A stretch of 64,000 nucleotides of DNA, from contig NZ_JAVDYG010000001.1 of the NCBI RefSeq assembly GCF_031458325.1, forward strand, positions 2,976,001 to 3,040,000. The letters are read 5' to 3'. Both the position numbers and the translations under genes were made by a program. Shown one piece after another: positions 558 through 11,720 of this stretch. The notes below the pieces were generated by a model. That model did no database searches and was not told the DNA's origin. It saw nothing but the letters and a program-made list of their open reading frames with translations. The stretch is from Nocardioides marmoribigeumensis. GTDB lineage: Bacteria > Actinomycetota > Actinomycetes > Propionibacteriales > Nocardioidaceae. The first letter of the stretch is position 1; every line of letters begins with the position of its first letter.

Positions 558-2660
558 TCACTCCGGGTCGTAGCAGGCCAGGAGCAGCGCGAGGTCGTCG
601 TCGAGCGCGTGGCCGGCGGCCCGCTGCAGGGCGGTGAGGAGGCCGTCGAGCGCCGTGGGGAAGTCGGCTCGGGCCAGGTCGGAGAGCAGGGGCATCGGGT
701 CGATGAAGTCGCCGGTCGGCGACCGGGCCTCGATCAGCCCGTCGGTGAAGAGCAGCAGCCGGTCGCCGCGTCGCAGGGTCCCGGTCGTGGCGACCGGCTC
801 GCAGCCGAGGCCGAAGGGTGGCGCGGCGTCGAGCACGAGCGGGCAGGGCTCGCCGTCGAAGGGGAGCAGCACCGGTGCGGGGTGGCCGCAGGTCACCACG
901 GTGAAGTGGCCGGCGTGGTCGATGTCGACGATGACTCCGGTGACGAAGTCCTCGGGGTCGGGGAGGTAGGGCTGGATGCGGCGGTCGACCTCGCGGGCCA
1001 CGTGGCACACGTCGCCGGTGTCGGCGGCAGCGGCACGGAACTCGCCGATGACGACCGTGGCCGTGCGGACCGCCGAGAGCCCCTTGCCCCGCACGTCGCC
1101 GACGAGCAGACGCACCGACGTCGTGCCCGGCACGATCTCGTAGAGGTCCCCGCCGACCTGGGCCTCGACCGCCGCGGAGAGGTAGCGCGCGGAGAGCCTG
1201 AGCGGCCCCGTCCGGGGCGGGGGCGGGGCGAGGATGGCGCGCTGCGCGACCTCGGCCACCTGCATCACCCCGGCCAGTCGCTCGGACTGCTGCTCGAAGC
1301 TCGCGGCGGTGTCGAGCGCGACGGCGATGCGGTCGGCCATCTCCTCGAGGAAGGCCAGGTCCTCCTCGCCGTAGCTGCGGCCCGACTCGGCCTGGATCAG
1401 CGTGACCGCTCCGAGTACGCCCTGGCGACCCACCAGCGGGGCGATGATCGCGCTGGTGAAGCCGAGCCGCCGGAGCAGGGCGAGGTGGTCCTCGTCCCGG
1501 GCGGCACGCTCCACCACCTCGGCGGGGATGAAGGGGTAGAGCTCGCTCCGGCCGCTGCGGACGACCTGGGGCGCACCGGTGGGGGCGTCCATGTCGACCG
1601 GGAAGGCACCTCGCATGCCACGGGCCCACTCGGTCGTGGCGGGGTCGCGGTGCTGCACCAGCACGGTCTCGAGCGCGTGGTCCCGCAGGAGCTGGACGGT
1701 CACCCAGTCCGCGAAGCGGGGCACGAGCAGTCGCCCGACCTCGCCCAGGGTGGTCTCGAGGTCGAGGCTGCGCGACAGGGTCATCGACGCCTCGTCGAGC
1801 AGGGCGGTGCGCTGCGTGGCGGCGTCGGCGGCCTGCAGCTCCCCGGCCCGGCGTACGGCGCTGGACAGTGCGCCTGCCAGCGAGTGCAGGAAGCCGTCCT
1901 CGGCCGCGGTGAACAGGTCGGGCGGGAAGGTGAGGGCCAGCAGGCCGTACGTCGTGCCCTCGCGTCGCAGCGGCAGCAGGTGGAGGCTGCGGTCGCTGGG
2001 GTAGTAGCCGGCGAGCACCGGCATGACGGCCTCGATCTCCTTCACCGAGCGGTAGTGCAGGTCGGCCCCCTGGCGGACCGCGACCGCGCCGGGCAGGTCG
2101 CTGTCGACCGGGATCTCCTGGTACTGGTCGGCCCCGTCGCCGGTGCGCCCGTGCCAGGTCACCGACCGCAGCATCCCGTCGCCGTCCAACGACATCACCA
2201 TCGCCGAGCTCGCGCCCAGGACGCCGACGGCGTGGCCGACGAAGCCCTCCGCGACCTCCCTGACCGTGCGGGCGCCCGTGAGCTCGACGGCGAGCGCGTC
2301 GAGCACGCGCTGGGCCAGCTGCGTGGTGTGCTCCAGCCGCCGGCGGCGGCGCGTGGTGAGGTCGGCGGCCACGACGGCGATGAGGCTCAGCAGCACGCAG
2401 CTGAGGAAGCGGATCGTCCAGTCGCCGTGACCCAGGTTGTGGTTCCACACCCCGGACGCGGCGGCGGCGACCACGGCCAGCGCGGCGACGACCGCCGTCC
2501 GGCCCGGGCCGGTGTCGATCGCGACGAGGACCGCGGCCGCGGCGTACACCCCGTTGATCTGGTGGCCGGAGGCCCGGTCGAGCGCCACGAGCACGACCAG
2601 CAGCAGGACGCCGACCGCCCACGCGCGGCGTTCGAGGCTCGCAGAGAACGCGGGGGTCAC
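558..2660 (-). CDS. Membrane-anchored GAF-GAF-SpoIIE (PP2C) phosphatase
   Basis: A 700-residue signalling phosphatase. The first ~110 residues hold about four hydrophobic segments, followed by a basic RRRRR stretch and two GAF-like sensor domains. The C-terminal ~210 residues form a SpoIIE/RsbU-type PP2C domain with VGGDLYE, VGDVRGKG and a final DDDLALLL, supplying the metal-binding aspartates. Such proteins dephosphorylate STAS anti-anti-sigma proteins. I chose GTG at 2660 because GGAGG lies just upstream and the membrane segment follows at once; the open frame extends further to 3077, but that part reads as low-quality sequence antisense to the neighbour. It is transcribed divergently from the HATPase-PAS gene, so the two may form a phosphatase/kinase switch. 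No anti-sigma or STAS partner is adjacent; the nearest STAS genes are in the stressosome operon. Confidence 0.9.
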   Translation of the reverse strand: MTPAFSASLERRAWAVGVLLLVVLVALDRASGHQINGVYAAAAVLVAIDTGPGRTAVVAALAVVAAAASGVWNHNLGHGDWTIRFLSCVLLSLIAVVAADLTTRRRRRLEHTTQLAQRVLDALAVELTGARTVREVAEGFVGHAVGVLGASSAMVMSLDGDGMLRSVTWHGRTGDGADQYQEIPVDSDLPGAVAVRQGADLHYRSVKEIEAVMPVLAGYYPSDRSLHLLPLRREGTTYGLLALTFPPDLFTAAEDGFLHSLAGALSSAVRRAGELQAADAATQRTALLDEASMTLSRSLDLETTLGEVGRLLVPRFADWVTVQLLRDHALETVLVQHRDPATTEWARGMRGAFPVDMDAPTGAPQVVRSGRSELYPFIPAEVVERAARDEDHLALLRRLGFTSAIIAPLVGRQGVLGAVTLIQAESGRSYGEEDLAFLEEMADRIAVALDTAASFEQQSERLAGVMQVAEVAQRAILAPPPPRTGPLRLSARYLSAAVEAQVGGDLYEIVPGTTSVRLLVGDVRGKGLSAVRTATVVIGEFRAAAADTGDVCHVAREVDRRIQPYLPDPEDFVTGVIVDIDHAGHFTVVTCGHPAPVLLPFDGEPCPLVLDAAPPFGLGCEPVATTGTLRRGDRLLLFTDGLIEARSPTGDFIDPMPLLSDLARADFPTALDGLLTALQRAAGHALDDDLALLLACYDPE

Positions 2661-2883
2661 GGCGCCTCCAGTCCACGGGACGGCGAGGGCCGTCGTGCCG
2701 AGGATAGTGGCGCATGGGGGGCGGCCTTCGTGGGAACGGGGAAGTCCTCCGCAGACGGTGGGGGCACCCCACCCGGAAGGGTGGGTGACGAGATTTTCCT
2801 TGTCCCGCAGCCGTTCCGGTGGACGCCGGTCCACCGGCGGCGCGAGGATGAAGGGCTCTGGAGTCGTGGCGAAGGAGGACCTC
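2661..2883. promoter_or_regulatory. Divergent promoter region with GGGTGGG-type inverted element
   Basis: The 223-bp gap between two divergent signalling genes has no ORF that I believe. It contains an imperfect inverted repeat around 2765-2788 (CACCCCACCC, then GGGTGGGTG after a short spacer) next to a short AT-rich patch, GAGATTTTCC, at 2790-2799. A related GGGTGGG arrangement occurs just upstream of the secreted hydrolase start (6010-6045, opposite strand). I infer a shared promoter or operator but cannot assign a sigma factor. Confidence 0.35.
2872..2878 (+). promoter_or_regulatory. Strong ribosome binding site setting the HATPase-PAS start
   Basis: AAGGAGG lies 5 nt before GTG at 2884. 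This near-perfect Shine-Dalgarno sequence argues against the in-frame ATG at 2848, which has none. Confidence 0.75.
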
Positions 2884-4182
2884 GTGCACTCGCCGGCTGC
2901 CGTCCTCCGGCTCGACGTGGATCCGCGCAGCGTGCGGGAGGCCCGGCTCCACCTGCATGCCGTGCTGGAGACGGCGGGTCTCGAGGAGCTGGTCGACGAC
3001 GCCACGCTCGCGGTCTCCGAGGTCGTCACCAACGCGATCGTCCACGCCGGCACGGAGGTGCTGGTCCGGGTCCGCACCGCGGGCCGGGCCGTGCGGGTCG
3101 AGGTGGAGGACCGCGGGCTGCAGGCGCCCTCCCGCCGCTCCTACTCCGACTCCTCCGGCACGGGCCGGGGCCTGGCGATGGTCGAGGACACCGTCCGCTC
3201 GTGGGGGGTCGAGGAGCTCGAGGACGGCAAGGTCGTCTGGTTCGAGGTGGGCGACCCCGAGGGACACGAGACCACCGACGGCACGGCCGTCCACGAGGTC
3301 CCCGACGGCACGAGCGTCCAGTCGACGCGGACCCAGGACGTGGTGCGCGTGCGCCTCCAGCGGGTCCCGCTGCTGATGCACGTCGCCTGGCAGGAGCACG
3401 CCGCCGCCCTCCTGAGGGAGCACCTCCTGCACTCCCTCGGCGACGACGGGGGTGACGTGCTGTCCGAGCACGCGCACGCCAGCGAGGCGATGAGCCTGCT
3501 CTACTCCCAGCTCCCGGTCCCGGTCCTCGGCGCGGCGCCCGAGGAGCTCATGGCCGGTGCGACCGAGCCGTTGGTCACCGCCGAGGACGTCGTGCTCGAG
3601 GTGCCGCTGTCGACCGTCGCGCACTTCGCCACCCTCGACCGTCTGCTGCGACGCAGCCTCGAGGAGGCCCGGGCCGGGCACTTCCTCTGCCCGCCCACCC
3701 AGCCCGAGATCGAGGAGATGCGCCGGTGGCTCTGCTCCGAGGTGGCGCGACAGGCGGCCGGCGACACGACGGAGGTGCCGTGGGTGGCACGCAGCGACGT
3801 CCGGGTCGCGGTGGTCGACCGTGTGGACGGCGCCGTGGTGCACGAGCTCCACGCGGAGGACGGTGAGGCCCTGGTGGCCACCGACGAGAGCAGCGTGGTC
3901 GTCGCGGTCTCCCCGGCCGCCGTGGAGCTGCTCGGCTACGCCTCCGCCGAGGACCTGCTCGGCAGACGCGTCATCGCGATCGTGCCGGAGCGCTTCCGGC
4001 AGGCCCACATCGCCGGGACGACGCTGCACGCCACCAACGGCCGGGACAACCTGCTCGGGGTCCCCGTCCGGGTGCCCATGGTGCGTGCGGACGGGTCGGA
4101 GGTCGACGTGGAGCTGCGGGTCGACCCGGAGGCGCACGACGAGGGCCCGGTGGCCTTCGTCGCACGCTTCCGCGCCGTGTGA
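2884..4182 (+). CDS. HATPase (RsbW/SpoIIAB-like) - PAS domain regulator
   Basis: A 432-residue protein. Residues ~1-125 form an anti-sigma-kinase-type HATPase_c_2 domain with an N-box (SEVVTNAIVHAG, ~residue 42) and a glycine-rich lid (GTGRGLAMV, ~residue 98). A middle region of ~170 residues is helical and charged with no family I recognise. The last ~130 residues form a PAS domain (VVAVSPAAVELLGYASAEDLLGRR, shown in pieces, then a VRADGSEVDVEL strand). Known RsbW-like ATPases bind sigma factors or phosphorylate STAS partners; here the PAS domain would provide ligand or redox sensing. It is divergent from the membrane SpoIIE phosphatase and convergent with the hydrolase gene ending at 4193, only 10 bp away. 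Target unknown. Confidence 0.88.
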   Translation: MHSPAAVLRLDVDPRSVREARLHLHAVLETAGLEELVDDATLAVSEVVTNAIVHAGTEVLVRVRTAGRAVRVEVEDRGLQAPSRRSYSDSSGTGRGLAMVEDTVRSWGVEELEDGKVVWFEVGDPEGHETTDGTAVHEVPDGTSVQSTRTQDVVRVRLQRVPLLMHVAWQEHAAALLREHLLHSLGDDGGDVLSEHAHASEAMSLLYSQLPVPVLGAAPEELMAGATEPLVTAEDVVLEVPLSTVAHFATLDRLLRRSLEEARAGHFLCPPTQPEIEEMRRWLCSEVARQAAGDTTEVPWVARSDVRVAVVDRVDGAVVHELHAEDGEALVATDESSVVVAVSPAAVELLGYASAEDLLGRRVIAIVPERFRQAHIAGTTLHATNGRDNLLGVPVRVPMVRADGSEVDVELRVDPEAHDEGPVAFVARFRAV

Positions 4183-4192
4183 CCGCCCGTCC

Positions 4193-5977
4193 TCACCAGG
4201 TGGCGAGCGCCGCCCGGATGTAGGGCCGCAGGGCCTCCGGGTAGAGCTTGCCCCTGGCGGTGTCGACCGAGGTGCTCTCCGCGGAGGTGTTGATCGTGGT
4301 GCCGTCGACGTACTCACCGAAGACGAAGTACCGCGGTGAGACCACCCCCGAGCGCTTGTAGGGCACACCGGTGAGCGAGACGTTGTCCCGGGAGACCTGG
4401 TAGGGCAGGGAGCTGCCGTACTGGTAGCTGCCGCCCTTGGCGATCCACGTCATCGCGTTGCAGAAGCTCGTGGCCGTCGCGCTCGACCTGCCCAGCGCCG
4501 TCGCCTCGGCGTTGACCACCGGGCAGATCGCGTTCTTGAACCCGGAGAAGTTGGACTGGTTGAGCATCCGGGAGCGGAACTGCGTCTTCCACGTGCTGCT
4601 GCCCGTCACGGTGCCCTTCTGGAAGGCCTCGTAGACCTTGCCGAGGTCGGACAGCGTGGTGCGGTTGTGCGTCGTGTCCGTCGGGCAGCCGATGTTGTGG
4701 TTGATGGCCGTGGACGTCAGCCCCAGCGACGTCCCGTAGCTCAGCACCGAGGCCTTGGTGTACCTCTCCAGGATGGCGCGGGTCATCCGGTTGTCGGAGA
4801 CCTGCATCATCAACGTGTCGGCGTTCTTCAGGTTCGTGGTGGTCGTCGTCGAATAATTGTCAGGACAGATGTTTCCGTCCTTGCTGTCCGACAGGTTCTT
4901 GTAGTGGTAGGTGACCACCGTCGAGTCGGTGGTGTTGCCCAGGGACTCCTCCCGGATCGACTTGGCGTGGTAGAGCACCTTGAGCGCACTCGCGGGTTCG
5001 TACTGCTTGCTCTGCTGGAGCCCGGCGAGGACCGAGCCGCCGACCTGCTTGAGGTAGAAGCCGTAGGCCCCGGAGTCGACCTCGGGGCCGATGAGGTTCC
5101 ACAGCTTCTCGTTGGTGGCGGTGGTGTTCCGCGTCATCACGACCGCGACGCTGCTGCCGTAGCGCGTCACGTCGATGATCCGCTCGCCGAGCTGGTCGGC
5201 CCGGCTGACGGCGGAGCCGAGCGACAGCCCGTAGTACCAGTACCACCGCGGTCCGGTGCTCTTGTACATCACCGCGTTCCAGGTGCCGTCGCTGTTGCGG
5301 CTCAGGTCGACCAGCCGGGCGCTGTTCGTGGACAGCGCGCTGGAGATCGAGGACGTCGTCGTGTGGTGGTACCACCACCAGCCGGTGTTGTCCGTGCCCG
5401 TGTTGCTCACCATGACGGCCGTGAAGTTGCTGGTGCCGGGGTACTGCGTGAGGTGCACCAGGCGCGCGTTCCTGCTCGACAGCTGCGAGGCCAGGCTGCT
5501 CGCGCTGATGTTGTAGAACCACCACCAGGCCTTCTGGTTGGCGCCGCTGTTGGGGACCATGACGACGGCGAAGCGGGTGCCGGCCGAGGTCGGGTAGGCC
5601 TGGGCGGTGATGAGCCGGGCGTTGTTCGACGACAGGGCCGAGCTCACCTGTGCGGCGGTCTGGCCGTAGTACCACCAGTAGCCGCTCGCGTAGGCCCCGG
5701 TGTTCCTGACCATGGTGACGTTGAACGTCGGCGTCGCGGGGTCGACCACCGACAGGTCGGTGATCCGCGCGTTGTTGGACGACAGCAGGCTGCTCACCTG
5801 CGACCCGGTGACCCCGGTGTAGGTCCACCAGCCGGTGCTCGTCGTCAGCTGCCGGTCGTCGGCGCTGCCGACGGCGGCGCTCGCCGGGTCCCTGACCAGG
5901 GCGACCAGGAACAGCTGGACGACCAGGACCAGGACGAGCACGGAGGCTCGGGTTCTCAAGGTGGAGATGCTGGACAT
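4193..5977 (-). CDS. Secreted class-A beta-lactamase-fold serine hydrolase with five N-terminal Trp/Tyr-rich tandem repeats
   Basis: A 594-residue exported protein. ATG at 5977 has AAGGAGGA 5 nt upstream. Residues 1-35 are a Sec signal peptide (ISTLRTR, a VLVLVLVVQLFLVALV core, then an Ala-rich cleavage region). Residues ~45-290 contain five repeats of ~45 residues, each opening with WWTY/YWWYY/WWWFY/WWWYH/YWYY, then a segment like SSLLSSNNARITDL and a strand VTMVRNTG or similar. The C-terminal domain has the beta-lactamase signatures S330-x-x-K333 (SALK), S394-D395-N396 and K514-G-G in place of KTG. The same plan, tandem-repeat propeller plus beta-lactamase fold, is known from fungal polyglycine hydrolases, which are endoproteases. 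A secreted peptidase or esterase is more likely than antibiotic resistance. Codon use is slightly more AT-rich near 4850. Monocistronic. Confidence 0.85.
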   Translation of the reverse strand: MSSISTLRTRASVLVLVLVVQLFLVALVRDPASAAVGSADDRQLTTSTGWWTYTGVTGSQVSSLLSSNNARITDLSVVDPATPTFNVTMVRNTGAYASGYWWYYGQTAAQVSSALSSNNARLITAQAYPTSAGTRFAVVMVPNSGANQKAWWWFYNISASSLASQLSSRNARLVHLTQYPGTSNFTAVMVSNTGTDNTGWWWYHHTTTSSISSALSTNSARLVDLSRNSDGTWNAVMYKSTGPRWYWYYGLSLGSAVSRADQLGERIIDVTRYGSSVAVVMTRNTTATNEKLWNLIGPEVDSGAYGFYLKQVGGSVLAGLQQSKQYEPASALKVLYHAKSIREESLGNTTDSTVVTYHYKNLSDSKDGNICPDNYSTTTTTNLKNADTLMMQVSDNRMTRAILERYTKASVLSYGTSLGLTSTAINHNIGCPTDTTHNRTTLSDLGKVYEAFQKGTVTGSSTWKTQFRSRMLNQSNFSGFKNAICPVVNAEATALGRSSATATSFCNAMTWIAKGGSYQYGSSLPYQVSRDNVSLTGVPYKRSGVVSPRYFVFGEYVDGTTINTSAESTSVDTARGKLYPEALRPYIRAALATW

Positions 5978-6009
5978 GGGACTCCTCCTTCGGGCCCTCC
6001 CTGCCGACC

Positions 6010-6092: not shown

Positions 6093-7646
6093 TCAGGGGA
6101 GCAGGTCGACCACGAGGAGCGCGATGTCGTCCTCGCCGCCACTCCACGTGCGCAGCAGCTCGTCGGCCAGCTCGTCGGCCGAGGCCCACGAGGCGCTCTC
6201 GACCTGGCGGACCAGGTGGTCGGTGGTGAGCTCGAGCAGGAGGGCGCGCCGCTCGACGAGCCCGTCGGTGTAGAGGACGAGCCGGTCCCCGGGGTCCAGG
6301 TCGATCCGGGTCCGGGGCCGGTCGTGCAGCCCGAGCCCGAGGAGGGGGCCCTCGACCTGCAGGTGGGTGACCTCGCCGCGGCGCGCGCGCAGCGGCGGGA
6401 GGTGTCCGGCCGAGACGACCTCGGCCGACCGGCGGTCCGCGTCGACCACGACGACGCAGGCGGTGGCGGTGAGGTCGGGGCTGGTGCGGGCGAGCAGGGC
6501 GTCGAGCCGCGCGAGCGCCTCGGTGGGCGAATGGCCCTCGTGGGCATAGGCGCGCAGCGAGTAGCGCAGCTCGGCCATCACGACAGCGGCCTCGAGCGAG
6601 TGGCCCTGGACGTCGCCGATGACCAGCCAGCAGCGGCCCTCGACCTCGAAGGCGTCGTAGAAGTCGCCGCCGACCTCCATCCGCTGCTGCGAGGCGCGGT
6701 AGCGCGCCGCCAGGCTCAGCCCGGTGGGCTCGGGCAGGACGCTGGGCAGCAGGCTGCGCTGCAGGGTGACGGCGGTGCGGTGCTCGAACTCCAGCGCGCG
6801 CTGGTTGTCCAGCGCCACGGCCACGGCCTGGGCGAGTCGCTCGAGCAGGAGGACCGAGCGACCCTCGTCGCCGGTCGGCGGGAGCGGCGCCGCGACGACT
6901 CCCTCGACCCGGCCCTCGACCCGGACCGGGCACCCGGTCCAGCGGCCGGCGGCGACCGGCAGGTGCTCGGCCCACCCCGTGCCGGTGGCCAGGGGCGCGG
7001 GGTCCGGCGTCAGGTCGTCCAGCAGCCGGCGCGCGGTCTCCGACGGCACCGTGGCAGCGGCGTTGCCGACGTTGCCGGTGGCCGCGGCCCGCCAGCCCTC
7101 GCCCTGGTCGTCGAGGACGAGCGCCGCCGCGGGGGTGCCGAGCACCTGCGCGGCCGCCCGCGAGGCGCTCTCCACCAGGCGGGGCACGCTCACCGCGACG
7201 TTGAGGCGTACGGCGGCTCGGCTGAGCCGGGCGAGGCGGGTCGCGAGCTGCTCGGCGTCGCGGCGGGCCCCCGAGGAGCGCAGCAGTGCCCGGACCGTGG
7301 ACAGCAGCTCCTCCGGGTCGATCGGGTCGATCAGGTAGGCGTCGGCGCCCTCGTCGAGGGCGGTGACCTTGTCGGAGGTCTCGCGGGCGACCGCCGAGAC
7401 GTGGATGACCGGGGTGGGGGCCAGGCGCTCGTCCGCGCGGATGACCCGGGTGACGTCGAGGCCGCTGCCGTCGGGCAGGTGCACGTCGAGGACCGCCAGG
7501 TCGATCGGCTCGGTGTGCATCAGCTCGGTCGCCTCGGCCGCCGTCCCGCTCTCGACCACCTCGAACCCGCCGCGGCGCAGCCAGCTGGCGAGGACGTACC
7601 GCTTGGCCGGGGTGTCGTCGCAGACCAGGATCAGCGGCGCGCTCAC
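6093..7646 (-). CDS. Response-regulator receiver - GAF-like - SpoIIE phosphatase (stressosome output, RsbU/RsbP analogue)
   Basis: 517 residues, last gene of the stressosome operon. Residues 1-120 form a CheY-like receiver with the acidic pair D10/D11, phospho-acceptor D54 (AVLDVHLPDGSG) and S84, but the conserved lysine is replaced by Asp (YLIDP, D107), so phosphorylation may be weak or decoupled. A degenerate GAF-like region follows (~130-290). From ~residue 315 there is a SpoIIE PP2C domain with VGGDFYDAF, VIGDVQGHS, VLYTDGL and GGEDDIALLVV. The start is GTG, overlapping the upstream kinase stop by 4 bp (GTGA). In Bacillus the stressosome releases RsbT to activate RsbU; this phosphatase is the natural downstream effector here. 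Its STAS substrate and sigma factor are not in the window. Confidence 0.9.
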   Translation of the reverse strand: MSAPLILVCDDTPAKRYVLASWLRRGGFEVVESGTAAEATELMHTEPIDLAVLDVHLPDGSGLDVTRVIRADERLAPTPVIHVSAVARETSDKVTALDEGADAYLIDPIDPEELLSTVRALLRSSGARRDAEQLATRLARLSRAAVRLNVAVSVPRLVESASRAAAQVLGTPAAALVLDDQGEGWRAAATGNVGNAAATVPSETARRLLDDLTPDPAPLATGTGWAEHLPVAAGRWTGCPVRVEGRVEGVVAAPLPPTGDEGRSVLLLERLAQAVAVALDNQRALEFEHRTAVTLQRSLLPSVLPEPTGLSLAARYRASQQRMEVGGDFYDAFEVEGRCWLVIGDVQGHSLEAAVVMAELRYSLRAYAHEGHSPTEALARLDALLARTSPDLTATACVVVVDADRRSAEVVSAGHLPPLRARRGEVTHLQVEGPLLGLGLHDRPRTRIDLDPGDRLVLYTDGLVERRALLLELTTDHLVRQVESASWASADELADELLRTWSGGEDDIALLVVDLLP

Positions 7647-9025
7647 GCGGCACCCCCGGCGGGCAGGCGCAGCGTGAACGAGCTGCCCTCGCCGGGGGCG
7701 CTCTCGACGTCGATGTCACCACCGAGCACCTGGGCGACGCTGCGGGCGAAGGGCAGGCCGAGCCCGGTGCCGCGGGCGGTCGCGTGCAGCGGTGTCCTGA
7801 CCTGGAAGAACTCCTCGAACACCAGGGCCTGCTCCTCCTCGGTCATCCCGATGCCGGTGTCGCGGACCCGGACCTCGACGCCCTCGGCCGCGTCGGCCCC
7901 GTCGGCCCCGTCGACGCCGTCGACCCCGTCGACCCCGTGGACCCCGTCGACCTGGGTGACCTCGAGGGTCACGGTGCCCGCGGTGGTGAACTTGGCGGCG
8001 TTGCTGAGCAGGTTGCGCAGGACGTGCCGCACGAGGTCGGGGTCGGTGCGCAGCACGAGTCCGGGCGGGCCGGGGTCGACCTCCAGCCGCACGCCCTCGC
8101 GCAGCAGGGCCCTCGTCGTGCCCGCGAGCTCGCCGCACAGCGCGGCGAGGTCGACGTCCTGCCAGGCGGGCTCGAGGCGGCCGGACTCCGCCTTGGCGAG
8201 GTCCATCAGCTCGTTGACCAGCGACAGCAGCTCGGTGGCGCTCGCCCGGATGAACGCGACCTGCTCGCCCTGCTCCGGCGACAGGGGTGCCGCACCCGGG
8301 TCGGCGAGCAGCCCGGTGAGGCCGAGGACGGAGTTGACCGGGGTGCGCAGCTCGTGGCTGATGCTGCGCAGGAAGCGGCTCTTGGCCTCGCTGGCCGCGG
8401 TCAGCTGGAGGTTCTTCTCGTCGATCTCGGCGTAGAGCGCGACCACGCCCTGGTTGGTGCGCTCCAGCTCGCCGGACAGCTCGGAGTAGAGCGCCATCAC
8501 GCCCCGGTTGGTCTCCTCGAGCTCGTGGTTGAGCGTCTCGAGGGCGGCGTTCTTCTCGCGCACCGCGTCGAGCAGGGTCAGCAGCTCGGCGTTCTGCTGC
8601 TGCAGCTCGTCGAGCGGGCTGGTGGGGGCGTGGGCGGCGACGATGCGCTGCACCCGGTGGCGCTCCGCGTCGGTGACGGGCCGCACCCCCCGCTGCTCCA
8701 GGCGTACGACGGCCAGGCCGTCGGCGACCTCGTGCGTCACGGTGTCGAGGAGACGGCGGGCCGAGACCATGCTGGGGGAGTCGTCCGGCAGGTGGGACGC
8801 GGTGAGGGTGGCGACGAGGTCGCCGCTGCCCTGGACCTCGAACGACAGCCGTCCGCCGGCCGCGGCCGCCTCCCGCGCGAGCTCGCTGATCGCGGTCGCG
8901 AGCCGGGTGGCGCCGATGCGGTCGAGGCCGACCACCTGGGCCAGCTCGCGGGCCAGCTGCCGTGCCGCGAACACGTCGGCGTCCTCCTCGAGGCGGAGGA
9001 CGGCGACCTGGGGGGCGCTGCTCAC
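7643..9025 (-). CDS. Histidine kinase with N-terminal RsbT-like domain and coiled coil
   Basis: 460 residues from GTG 9025, which overlaps the upstream stop by 4 bp. Residues ~1-125 resemble an RsbT-type HATPase module (RLATAISELAREAAAAGG) with degenerate ATP-lid features. Residues ~138-215 are a coiled coil with a repeated ETNRGVMALYSEL / RTNQGVVALYAEI heptad block. A HisKA box with H224 (RSISHELRTPV) and a HATPase domain (NLLSNAAKF, DTGIGM, GTGLGLPFARS, SSFTLRLP) follow. A low-complexity VDG/ADG insertion occupies residues ~359-382 inside the HATPase domain, encoded by a 9-bp tandem repeat. There is no transmembrane segment, so it is a cytosolic kinase. Its partner is probably the receiver-SpoIIE protein translated immediately after it. 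Confidence 0.9.
   Translation of the reverse strand: MSSAPQVAVLRLEEDADVFAARQLARELAQVVGLDRIGATRLATAISELAREAAAAGGRLSFEVQGSGDLVATLTASHLPDDSPSMVSARRLLDTVTHEVADGLAVVRLEQRGVRPVTDAERHRVQRIVAAHAPTSPLDELQQQNAELLTLLDAVREKNAALETLNHELEETNRGVMALYSELSGELERTNQGVVALYAEIDEKNLQLTAASEAKSRFLRSISHELRTPVNSVLGLTGLLADPGAAPLSPEQGEQVAFIRASATELLSLVNELMDLAKAESGRLEPAWQDVDLAALCGELAGTTRALLREGVRLEVDPGPPGLVLRTDPDLVRHVLRNLLSNAAKFTTAGTVTLEVTQVDGVHGVDGVDGVDGADGADAAEGVEVRVRDTGIGMTEEEQALVFEEFFQVRTPLHATARGTGLGLPFARSVAQVLGGDIDVESAPGEGSSFTLRLPAGGAA
7892..7954. repeat. 9-bp tandem repeat (about seven units, GTCGACCCC-like) inside the kinase gene
   Basis: Seven consecutive 9-bp units of GTCGGCCCC/GTCGACGCC/GTCGACCCC type encode the VDG-VDG-ADG run of the kinase. 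The unit length is a multiple of three, so copy-number change would keep the frame while lengthening or shortening a loop in the ATP-binding domain. Confidence 0.85.
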
Positions 9026-10080
9026 GGCGAGGGGACGCGCCGCGGCACGGGGGCGGGGGAGGGCAGCCGGAGGGTCAGGACGCCCGCGTCGTCGCGACGG
9101 GTGCCGGCGTCGCGGACGAGGGCGGCCGCGCACACGTCCGGGCCGTGCACGTCGACGTCGGGGAGGGCGCTGCCGCTCCACTTGTCGGTGAGCCCGTCGG
9201 AGTGCAGGACCAGGAGCCGTGCGGTGTCGAGGGGATAGGCGTTCTCCCTGACCCGCGGGAGCTTGTGCCCCACGATCCCGGGCTGGGTGGCCAGGGCGCG
9301 GGTGCCGCCCGAGGCGTCGACCAGGCGACCGCTGACGTTGCCGACGGCGGCGTGGGTGACCGTGCCCCGGTCGGGGTCGACCCGGCTCACCGCCACCGCG
9401 GCACCTCGCGTGGCGGCCAGGGCGCGGTGCATGAGCCCGACCAGCTCGACCGGGGACGTGGACGGGCTGGTCCGCAGCACGTGGGCGGCCCGGCCGGAGG
9501 CCTCGGCGGCGAGGGGGCCGTGGCCCAGCCCGTCGGCGACCGCGACCAGCCAGGTGGCGCCCACCTGCCGCCACGCGATGGCGTCGCCGCACTCGATCTC
9601 GCCGCGCAGGGGACGCAGCAGGTGCCCGACCGGTGCCCGCGGTGCCACGGGTGGCGGCCCGACCTCGGCGACGACCACGGCGCCACGTCCGACCTCGGAC
9701 CACAGGTCGAGGTGGTCCGCGAGCCGGCCGACGGCGCCGAGCCCGACGCCGAGGGTGCCCGTGGTGGACACCCCGTCACGGACCAGGCCGGCCAGGTCGC
9801 GCGTGCCGGGACCGGAGTCGATCGCGAGGAGCTGGACGGTCCCCGCCGCCGTGGTCCGCAGGACGAGGTCGCCGCCGCGGCCGTGCTTGACCAGGTTGGT
9901 GGCCAGCTCGCTGGCGATGATCTCGACCTCGCCGAGGACGTCGGCAGGGAAGCCGAGCGTCGAGGCCAGCGAGGCGGCCCGCCGTCGCGCGCCGGGGACG
10001 GCCGCGGCGTCGTCCACCGCGACCCACACGGCAGCTGTCGGCGGGACCTGCGGCTCGCCCGGCAAGCTCAGCGCCGCCAC
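9022..10080 (-). CDS. RsbT-like kinase - RsbX-like PP2C phosphatase fusion
   Basis: 352 residues, GTG start at 10080 lying 13 bp inside the end of rsbT. The N-terminal ~145 residues are a second RsbT-type HATPase (EIIASELATNLVKHG; DSGPG; GTLGVGLGAVGRLAD). The C-terminal ~200 residues are an RsbX-type phosphatase (VAVADGLGHGPLAAEASGRAA; LLVLHSDGLTDKW). In Bacillus RsbX removes phosphates from RsbR/RsbS to reset the stressosome, opposing RsbT. A fusion would place both opposing activities in one chain. Such RsbT-RsbX fusions are known in other actinobacterial and proteobacterial stressosome operons. It ends with a 4-bp overlap with the kinase gene, so translation is probably coupled. Confidence 0.88.
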   Translation of the reverse strand: MAALSLPGEPQVPPTAAVWVAVDDAAAVPGARRRAASLASTLGFPADVLGEVEIIASELATNLVKHGRGGDLVLRTTAAGTVQLLAIDSGPGTRDLAGLVRDGVSTTGTLGVGLGAVGRLADHLDLWSEVGRGAVVVAEVGPPPVAPRAPVGHLLRPLRGEIECGDAIAWRQVGATWLVAVADGLGHGPLAAEASGRAAHVLRTSPSTSPVELVGLMHRALAATRGAAVAVSRVDPDRGTVTHAAVGNVSGRLVDASGGTRALATQPGIVGHKLPRVRENAYPLDTARLLVLHSDGLTDKWSGSALPDVDVHGPDVCAAALVRDAGTRRDDAGVLTLRLPSPAPVPRRVPSP

Positions 10081-10481
10081 TTGAGGATCCGCACGCGGGT
10101 GCCCTCGCCGGGCGCGGAGTCGATGGCGAACTCGTCGACCAGCCGCTTGGTGCCGGACAGACCCAGCCCCATCCCACCGCCCGAGGTCCAGCCGTCGGTC
10201 AGGGCCAGCTCGACGTCGGCGATGCCGGGGCCCTCGTCGCTGAACACCAGCTCCACGCCGGTGCGCCCCATCCGCTCGACGAGGGTGGCGCGCACCTCGC
10301 CGCCGCCGCCGTACACCAGGGTGTTGCGGGCCAGCTCGCTGGTCGCGGTGACCAGCTTGGTCTGGTCGACGATCGAGAGCCGGGCAGTCACGGCCAGGTC
10401 GCGCGCCACCTGCCGCACGCGCACGACGTCGGCGTCGCTGGTGACGGTGAGGGCGGTCTGGTCAGCCGCCGGCGCCGTCAT
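10068..10481 (-). CDS. rsbT: RsbT-type serine/threonine kinase of the stressosome
   Basis: 137 residues, the usual RsbT length. HATPase motifs are complete: N-box SELARNTLVYGGGG, G1 box FSDEGPGIAD and G2 box GGGMGLGLSGTKRLVDEF, ending ...RVRILKWRR. RsbT phosphorylates Ser/Thr residues on the STAS domains of RsbS and RsbR, leaves the complex and activates a downstream phosphatase. The start is ATG at 10481, overlapping the end of rsbS by 20 bp, and the 3' end overlaps the RsbT-RsbX fusion. Order and spacing rsbR-rsbS-rsbT match the classical module. Confidence 0.93.
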   Translation of the reverse strand: MTAPAADQTALTVTSDADVVRVRQVARDLAVTARLSIVDQTKLVTATSELARNTLVYGGGGEVRATLVERMGRTGVELVFSDEGPGIADVELALTDGWTSGGGMGLGLSGTKRLVDEFAIDSAPGEGTRVRILKWRR

Positions 10482-10869
10482 CGCCCTCGACCTCGCGAAG
10501 CAGGAGCGCTGACCCGCTGGTCCGGGACGCCAGCAGCCGCAGGCCGCGGTCGACGTCGAGCGCGGTGAGGACGCCGTCGAGGGTCAGGCCGAGCTCGACC
10601 AGCGTGATCGCCACGGCCGGCTGCATGCCGACGACCACCGTCTCGGCGTCCAGGACCCGCGAGACCGCGGCGGTCGTCGAGATCATCCGGCCCACGAAGC
10701 TGTCCACGATCTCCAGCGCCGAGATGTCGATCAGCACGCCCTTGGCGCCGGTCTCGACGATGCGCTGGCTCAGGTCGTCCTGGAGCTGGACGGCGATGTG
10801 GTCCTGCAGGTCGACCTGGATCGAGACCAGCAGGACGTCGCCGATCCGCAGGATCGGCACGCGCTCCAT
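10462..10869 (-). CDS. rsbS: RsbS stressosome scaffold (single STAS domain)
   Basis: 135 residues, one STAS domain covering nearly the whole protein. It has the family start MERVPILRIGDVLLVSIQVD and the phosphorylation-site loop DISALEIVDSFVGR, where S57 aligns with Ser59 of Bacillus RsbS. RsbS co-assembles with RsbR into the ~1.8-MDa stressosome core and binds RsbT until phosphorylated. Its ATG shares one base with the rsbR stop (TGATG), a standard sign of coupled translation and fixed stoichiometry. Confidence 0.93.
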   Translation of the reverse strand: MERVPILRIGDVLLVSIQVDLQDHIAVQLQDDLSQRIVETGAKGVLIDISALEIVDSFVGRMISTTAAVSRVLDAETVVVGMQPAVAITLVELGLTLDGVLTALDVDRGLRLLASRTSGSALLLREVEGDDGAGG

Positions 10870-11720
10870 CAGGACTCCCCGCGGTAGCCGACGACGTCGA
10901 GGCCGGAGCTGCGCAGCGCCGCGAGCAGCGCGTCGGCCAGGCTGGCCTTGGTCTGGATGTCGCCGAACTCGATGCCGAGGGCGACGACGGTCTGGGCGAT
11001 CTGCGGGCGGATGCCGGAGATGATGCACTCCGCACCGAGCAGGCGCGCGGCCTGCACGGTCTTGAGCAGGTGCTGGGCGACCTGGGTGTCGACGGCCGCG
11101 ACCCCGGTGATGTCGATGATCGCGTGCTCGGAGCCGGTGTCGACCAGCGCCTGGAGCAGAGCCTCCATCACCACCTGGGTGCGCGCGGAGTCGAGCGTGC
11201 CGACCAGCGGCAGCGCGACGATGCCCTTCCACAGCTTGACCACCGGCGTGGAGAGCTCCAGCAGGCTCTCGGCCTGCTCGGAGATCACCGACTCGCGCGT
11301 CGCGGCGTAGGTCTCGAGCATGAAGAGGCCGAGGTCGTCGACGATCCGGGACAGGTCGGCGAAGGCGCGGTAGCCCGCGGCGTCCCCGCCGTCCTCGAGG
11401 ACGTCGAGCACGGCGTCCTTGAGGGCGAAGACGTTGACCGCGGTCTCGGTCGGGGTGAACCCCTGACGGGCCCGCGCGCGGCTGAGGTCGCTCAGCAGGG
11501 ACCTCAGCCCGTCGTACGAGCCGCCGCGCACGTCGGTGCGGGCGCCCTGCGAGGCGCCCTCCAGCAGGGCCGCGTAGATCTCCCCGATGTCGCGCGAGGA
11601 CTCGGCGCTCGTCATCCGCCCGGCCAGGGTGCGCTCGACCGTCCGGGTCCACTGGCCGACCACCGCGTCGCGGTTCGTCCTCAGCAGCTCTGGCCAGCCC
11701 TGGGTGGTGCTGTCGCTCAC
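10869..11720 (-). CDS. rsbR: RsbR stressosome sensor/scaffold protein
   Basis: 283 residues from GTG 11720, preceded by AAGGAG at suitable spacing. Residues ~1-150 are an all-helical N-terminal domain of the RsbRD_N/globin-like kind that forms the sensory turret. The C-terminal ~120 residues are a STAS domain. Both regulatory threonines are present: T212 in DITGVAAVDTQVAQH and T244 in IRPQIAQTVVALG, matching Thr171 and Thr205 of Bacillus RsbR. Only one RsbR paralogue is in the window. The N-terminal domain shows no heme, flavin or PAS motif I can name, so the stimulus is unknown. It is the first gene of the operon. Confidence 0.93.
   Translation of the reverse strand: MSDSTTQGWPELLRTNRDAVVGQWTRTVERTLAGRMTSAESSRDIGEIYAALLEGASQGARTDVRGGSYDGLRSLLSDLSRARARQGFTPTETAVNVFALKDAVLDVLEDGGDAAGYRAFADLSRIVDDLGLFMLETYAATRESVISEQAESLLELSTPVVKLWKGIVALPLVGTLDSARTQVVMEALLQALVDTGSEHAIIDITGVAAVDTQVAQHLLKTVQAARLLGAECIISGIRPQIAQTVVALGIEFGDIQTKASLADALLAALRSSGLDVVGYRGES

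Follow-up and report, generated by a model that had tools for sequence, protein, structure and literature searches.

Stressosome genes are found in operons of differing composition. In Bacillus subtilis they form part of the sigB operon, rsbRSTUVW-sigB-rsbX. In the operon of Vibrio vulnificus, VvRsbRSTX-VvD1-D2, the genes rsbR, rsbS, rsbT and rsbX are followed directly by two-component genes and sigB is unlinked (Heinz et al. 2022; passages of PMC9237108 drawn on here). According to the same passages, the majority of downstream proteins in species with a globin-type RsbR have no RsbU_N domain, and RsbT is proposed as a kinase that may phosphorylate the downstream kinase. Bacillus cereus RsbK-RsbY provides a third arrangement, in which a histidine kinase and a REC-PP2C phosphatase serve as the sigma-factor output (review PMC7522486, section on RsbK-RsbY). 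For the relay of the signal from stressosomes without RsbU, a histidine kinase with a built-in, RsbT-derived head would be another, testable answer.

Here we analyze a stretch of 64,000 nucleotides (the window; C1:2976001-3040000) of the genome of Nocardioides marmoribigeumensis, a single contig of 4.44 Mb. Six overlapping genes on the minus strand (window positions 11720-6093) encode RsbR, RsbS, RsbT, an RsbT-RsbX fusion (TX), a histidine kinase (HK) and a receiver-PP2C phosphatase (Table 1). As a bacterial stress-sensing operon it is of a known type; its new part is the N-terminal domain of the HK (the head), which is derived from RsbT and has lost its ATP site. The operon shares with VvRsbRSTX-VvD1-D2 the run of stressosome genes directly followed by two-component genes but differs in the fusion of RsbX to a second RsbT domain and in the RsbT-derived head of its HK. 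Orthologues of R, S, T and X and their phospho-sites are shared with B. subtilis, and a SigB-type cassette is adjacent in some relatives; unlike the B. subtilis operon, however, it contains no RsbU_N-type phosphatase and no adjacent sigB, and its PP2C carries a receiver. The combination of a histidine kinase with a REC-PP2C phosphatase resembles RsbK-RsbY, although in that section of PMC7522486 RsbK is a membrane-bound hybrid kinase and an RsbT-like head goes unmentioned. Among the literature titles and abstract openings listed, none described a degenerate RsbT head on a histidine kinase, but an account of the head, the fusion or the gene order may already exist in the Pane-Farre reviews of 2005 and 2017. 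We favor, with moderate confidence, an interpretation of the locus as a minimal RST-X stressosome wired to a two-component PP2C output, in which the HK head is a pseudo-RsbT docking module.

The initial annotation, made from the window's sequence, had judged the N terminus of the HK to look RsbT-like. Direct searches gave little indication of this: a PDB sequence search with HK residues 1-147 found no GHKL protein (the top match, titin, at an E value of 8.4e-5, was judged spurious), Pfam did not recognize the head as an ATPase, HisKA and HATPase_c being the sole HK domains over its cut-off, and the 25 listed of 81 NCBIfam matches to the HK all start at residue 86 or later. Alignment via relatives, profile comparison and predicted fold nevertheless agree with the annotation. 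The head of a Deinococcus HK, in which the N-box, DQGPG and GxGxG motifs are intact, is 43% identical to the window RsbT (E = 2.8e-21). When profiles of the head domain alone were compared (hhalign), heads with a decayed ATP site matched intact heads at an E value of 1.4e-27, free RsbT at 4.7e-17 and the RsbT part of TX at 7.9e-8. The AlphaFold model of window HK residues 1-205 (mean predicted local distance difference test score [pLDDT], 93.8; predicted template modeling score, 0.70) has an RsbT-type fold, and the top 17 Foldseek matches of the head model are all anti-sigma kinases, including UsfX, SpoIIAB, RsbW and a sigF-anti-sigma complex (E = 2.3e-6 to 3.0e-4; identity, 12 to 18%). An intact head, that of L121, was modeled with a pLDDT of 86.5 and has SpoIIAB as its best Foldseek match (E = 9.5e-9). 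The alignments and models thus identify the HK head as an RsbT homologue with a predicted anti-sigma-kinase-type fold. It is like SpoIIAB, RsbW and UsfX (PDB 1tid, 6m36 and 8ih8) in this fold but unlike them in having no lid segment, N-box Asn or G1 Asp.

For comparison, genome contigs were scanned with an alignment of TX, which yielded at least 499 relatives. The best 80 (48 actinobacterial and 32 other loci, grouped by record title) were analyzed, and counts over 88 loci comprise these 80 plus further loci, including the window. As the bait was the fusion protein, the sample favors fused operons.

In the window head the N-box Asn, the G1 Asp and Gly, the lid segment and the G2 glycines are gone, and it is therefore not classed as an RsbT kinase. 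Loss of both the N-box Asn and the G1 Asp is universal among the 53 actinobacterial heads (47 from the best 80 and those of the window, L033, L034 and L037 to L039), and 49 have none of the four scored marks; the first G1 Gly remains in 8 and two lid/G2 glycines in 4 and 2, and another four glycines are each retained by 12 to 27 heads. The 32 other heads (30 from the best 80, L035 and L036; L044, L061 and L096, with the head missing or cut, were left out of the head counts) comprise 26 that are intact, 4 without N and D, all from Massilia, and 2 that are partly altered (L116 and L119). The first G1 Gly is present in all four decayed Massilia heads, and two of the four keep the G1 glycines. Lid segments are shortened or altered in four non-actinobacterial heads (L088, L113, L116 and L119), perhaps as early stages of the same loss.

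The other ATPase domains of the operon show no such decay. Free RsbT keeps all scored residues in 88/88 loci, including the window. The RsbT domain of TX has the Asp and four of five scored glycines in 88/88 and the Asn in 86/88, with Thr or Ser at the first G2 position in 88/88; the window TX has N62, D88-G-P-G and the G2 glycines. The HATPase of the RsbT-headed kinases has its N, D and G motifs in 84/84, with the His in 83/84 and one gap. Since the motifs are common to RsbT, TX and the intact heads, their loss is presumably the derived state. On a tree from which the head was excluded, made from S, T, TX and the HK core of 83 loci (quick method, unrooted, no bootstrap), two changes are needed to account for the decayed state, and the starred branches force two. 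By this evidence, the ATP site has been lost at least twice, separately in Actinobacteria and Massilia. The three RsbT-like modules of the initial annotation are therefore three by descent, but as the HK head has no ATP-site motifs, only two of them would be expected to act as kinases.

Decay of the ATP site has not extended to the whole head. Sixteen alignment columns have the same residue in ≥95% of both intact heads and free RsbT, and six of these (R22, T44, S47, E48, R51 and L92 in the window head, which also keeps R26, R41 and R91) are kept in ≥50 of the 53 actinobacterial heads and in 4/4 decayed Massilia heads. Individually, R22, R41 and L92 are found in 53/53, S47 and E48 in 52/53, R51 in 51/53 and R26 in 46/53 actinobacterial heads, and each in 4/4 decayed Massilia heads. 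A seventh of the 16 columns, a Gln, is kept in 39/53 and is Ala in the window. Given the shared R-x3-R spacing, R22 and R26 presumably correspond to R19 and R23 of B. subtilis RsbT. The latter residues lie in a modeled, mutation-supported interface with RsbU (PMC12143880, passages on that interface). The ratio of nonsynonymous to synonymous substitution rates (dN/dS) for the head was 0 in one and 0.27 to 0.66 in twelve of 13 hand-picked actinobacterial pairs (these overlap in some loci and are not independent); two pairs of decayed Massilia heads gave 0.32 and 0.53. Judged by these ratios, the head domain is constrained, but loosely.

The gene order around the head is widely conserved. With profiles built for this analysis, R-S-T-TX was found in order in 78/80 of the best relatives, from several phyla, and the two exceptions (L070 and L104) are both close to a contig end. 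The initial annotation had called the operon unusual, a description that does not survive the search for its gene order, albeit in a sample drawn with the fusion as bait; with at least 499 relatives found, the TX fusion was likewise dropped as a special feature. A match to the kinase-head profile follows R-S-T-TX in 77/78 loci. In two of these, L061 and L086, there is no kinase core and the contig or locus ends soon after, and in L044 the match covers the linker part only, in a gene fused to PP2C. In this last locus (Planosporangium; positions 8741-10375), the linker helix runs on into the PP2C phosphatase, and a kinase core was not found. The 78th locus, L096, ends just past TX; it is a 7.9-kb contig labeled Methanoregula (an archaeon), which could be a binning error. 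The nearest loci to the window by tree path (83 loci) are from Nocardioides species. The operon is patchy within the order of the source genome, with a head match at an E value of ≤1e-25 in 7/245 genomes, and in a phylum-wide draw the head was matched at an E value of 0.001 in 38/296 genomes and at <1e-50 in 3 (source genome included among the 7 and the 3; the first 10 to 12 candidates per genome were scored).

The last genes differ between groups. An HK followed by a receiver-PP2C gene was found in 47/48 actinobacterial loci, and the last gene matched the PP2C profile in 0/32 of the other loci, where it is mostly a receiver-kinase. These other loci include Proteobacteria, Acidobacteriota, Gemmatimonadota, a planctomycete, Rokubacteria and a myxobacterium. 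On a Deinococcus plasmid, the first five genes are the same and a receiver-kinase follows; on the D. radiodurans plasmid (L036, positions 2872-5698 and 6753-8653), T and HK are open, but each of R, S, TX and the last gene is spread over more than one frame. A link between head decay and a PP2C last gene was considered and is weakened by the decayed Massilia loci, which keep receiver-kinase last genes.

No sigma factor accompanies the operon, as initially annotated: the genome has 33 sigma-70 region 2 matches, all of them outside the window, and rsbV, rsbW and sigB, as in a B. subtilis-type SigB operon, were not found in or beside the window operon. Elsewhere in the genome, one SigB/F/G-type sigma factor exceeds the curated cut-off (C1:3306796-3307461) and is located beside an RsbW-like ATPase; a second match, at 3149485, is just below it. 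Linkage is seen in some relatives. In two Nocardioides loci, L043 (3767-6340) and L050 (3406-6072), genes for an RsbW-like ATPase, STAS protein(s) and a SigB-type sigma factor are divergent from rsbR, and the Nocardioides relative L042 (5274-6461) has the sigma factor gene in this position. In two Streptomyces loci (L068 and L074), a SigB-type sigma gene lies within ∼4.5 kb upstream. A divergent RsbV-like STAS gene is directly upstream in seven Micromonosporaceae loci (L048, L049, L062, L071, L076, L091 and L101, of which L048 and L049 are near-identical), and STAS and RsbW-like matches occupy this place in L078, where the STAS gene is also divergent and RsbV-like. Weak matches of other sigma types occur in L046, L117 and L118. 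Because a cassette lies beside the operon in some relatives and the REC-PP2C enzyme is as in RsbK-RsbY, our best guess, and a likely one, is an output through a SigB-type partner switch.

Two further features of the two-component part bear on how a signal might pass. The HK linker carries two TNxGV motifs 18 residues apart in 52/53 actinobacterial HKs; only L037 departs from this, with a worn first motif in a segment that is still present. Among the 27 other HKs, 23 have one TNxGV and 4 have none by the strict pattern (these carry variants), and all four decayed Massilia HKs have one. As 18 residues are five helical turns, the additional segment should keep the helical phase. The window receiver has D10, D11, D54 and S84, with D107 at the Lys position. 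Although the initial annotation was right that the conserved Lys is absent, its suggestion that control may be by docking rather than phosphorylation does not follow, as this absence is a family trait and the acidic pair, the phospho-acceptor Asp and the Ser are nearly always kept. The Lys position holds E, D or Q in 52/53 actinobacterial receivers, with K in one, and K in 0/25 others (those scored among the 32 best-80 loci plus L035 and L036, the rest being missing or weak), so that a loss peculiar to the window protein was dropped as an idea. The acidic pair is D/E-D in 53/53 actinobacterial receivers and D-D in 24/25 others, with one gap, the phospho-Asp is present in 53/53 and 24/25 and the Ser in all 78, and phosphorylation is therefore still possible. 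The H, N, D and G motifs of the kinase core, the DD, D and S of the receiver and the SpoIIE domain together make up a receiver-PP2C two-component design.

We propose the following mechanism, for which sequence supplies the gene set, homology, loss of ATP motifs, retained positions, intact catalytic residues in the histidine kinase and the phosphatase, gene order and, in some relatives, linkage to a partner switch. RsbR and RsbS would form the scaffold, on which free RsbT would phosphorylate S57 and T212/T244 under stress; the X half of TX would remove those phosphates, with the RsbT half as a targeting module. The actinobacterial head, folded like RsbT and not expected to bind ATP, would persist as a protein-docking module linking either the scaffold or RsbT itself, via the long signaling helix, to HisKA. 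The HK would then phosphorylate the receiver of the last protein, and the PP2C of that protein would dephosphorylate an RsbV-type STAS protein, releasing a SigB-type sigma factor. In the actinobacteria examined, the head without an ATP site may thus work as a docking arm, and the HK head is a candidate coupling device beside the proposed phosphorylation of the kinase by RsbT. Competition of several outputs for one scaffold, as initially suggested, is possible. A more tentative reading, slightly less likely than not, is that the RsbT-derived head of stressosome-linked histidine kinases became a pseudokinase at least twice with the same positions kept, a change that in Actinobacteria coincides with the 18-residue linker repeat and with a receiver-PP2C rather than a receiver-kinase last gene, and that the dead head is a dedicated docking arm that makes the HK a stressosome client. 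The dead head would then give a physical route from the stressosome to two-component signaling. Natural heads with and without an ATP site let docking and catalysis be separated.

Several findings weigh against this mechanism. All 19 SigBFG matches in the genome are outside the window, a SigB-type sigma gene is present in just 5/88 loci (with flanks of uneven length), and the close relative L156 (HK 61% and S 91% identical) is without sigma, RsbW- or RsbV-type genes in its 16 kb. In G049 (L040, 5685-9395), a genome from the order of the window, R-S-T is accompanied by an unfused X and a PP2C gene, without an RsbT-headed kinase. Some decayed heads still align with glycines at G1 (L037, L058 and the Massilia loci L092 and L117) or at G2 (L057 and L098). 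The retained E48 is normally catalytic, and docking alone does not explain its conservation. Finally, in 8 of the 12 actinobacterial pairs with changes, no other domain among the seven compared exceeds the head in dN/dS, and relaxed constraint is thus part of the story.

This last result is also what would be expected if the head were a relic that keeps the kinase dimer folded, the HK having another input and sharing the operon by history, and the free variation of the nucleotide-site residues fits equally well. We consider a relic improbable, since the same positions were kept in two independent losses, dN/dS is <1 in 13/13 pairs and the gene order is conserved across phyla. A less remote alternative, though still an unlikely one, is that the head is not a module for docking to STAS domains but a receptor for free RsbT, through a GHKL-GHKL heterodimer or an RsbU-like interface, and that released RsbT activates the HK. 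RsbU is activated when RsbT binds to its N-terminal domain and helical linker (PMC12143880, passages on RsbU activation), and the HK head sits on a comparable long helix; the head, however, is itself derived from RsbT, and the intact heads of other phyla would seem to be scaffold clients rather than RsbT clients.

The output may also be something other than a sigma factor, either another STAS/PP2C target or the receiver alone. The absence of any PP2C-profile match among the last genes outside Actinobacteria points in this direction, and stressosomes with cyclic di-GMP, PP2C or phosphorelay outputs have been described (PMC9237108, passages on outputs). Of the three alternatives this is the least unlikely, but the divergent RsbV/RsbW/SigB-type genes in Nocardioides relatives and the SigB/F/G-type sigma factors elsewhere in the genome argue against it, and we retain the SigB-type partner switch as the expected output.

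Table 1. Features of the stressosome operon (window coordinates)
Feature	Position	Strand	Description
rsbR	10869-11720	-	RsbRD_N sensor domain and STAS (Pfam); T212 and T244 kept
rsbS	10462-10869	-	Single STAS (Pfam), S57 kept; 1-bp overlap with rsbR
rsbT	10068-10481	-	Free switch kinase, HATPase_c (Pfam); scored ATP-site residues intact; 20-bp overlap with rsbS
rsbT-rsbX fusion (TX)	9022-10080	-	HATPase_c_2 and SpoIIE (Pfam); 13-bp overlap with rsbT
TX, RsbT-like domain with ATP-site motifs	~9643-10080	-	
TX, RsbX-type PP2C phosphatase	~9025-9633	-	
Histidine kinase (HK)	7643-9025	-	RsbT-like head, helical linker, HisKA (H224) and intact HATPase; 4-bp overlap with TX
Degenerate RsbT-like HK head, residues 1-112	8690-9025	-	Alignment and profile comparison
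HK signaling helix	8411-8617	-	Two TNxGV repeats 18 residues apart (T172, T190)
REC - GAF-like - SpoIIE PP2C phosphatase	6093-7646	-	Response_reg and SpoIIE (Pfam); proposed output enzyme; 4-bp overlap with HK

The six genes and their successive overlaps of 1, 20, 13, 4 and 4 bp are as initially annotated, as are S57 in RsbS and T212 and T244 in RsbR. The stressosome core is present by sequence, with the sensor and STAS domains of RsbR, the STAS domain of RsbS and an RsbT with intact N, G1 and G2 boxes. RsbS aligned to the solved RsbS 6qcm, which we take to be that of Listeria, at an E value of 1.2e-32 with the Ser matched, and T212 and T244 are presumably equivalent to the phospho-Thr sites of B. 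subtilis RsbR. Among PDB entries, the X part of TX matched the Moorella RsbX homologue 3zt9 (MtX; E = 4.2e-23) and B. subtilis RsbX 3w40 (E = 1.1e-8), and its four metal-binding Asp residues are present in 88/88 loci. In the last protein, Response_reg and SpoIIE are over the Pfam cut-off and GAF is below threshold.

Past the end of the operon, a gene for a GAF-SpoIIE phosphatase with a hydrophobic N-terminal part (561-2804, minus strand) is divergent from one for a HATPase_c_2 and PAS protein (2845-4179, plus strand), whose ATPase is a 36% match to the RsbW-like protein of L043. This pair is possibly a second partner-switching unit. Between it and the operon lies a gene with a Beta-lactamase2 (serine hydrolase) domain (4196-5989, minus strand).

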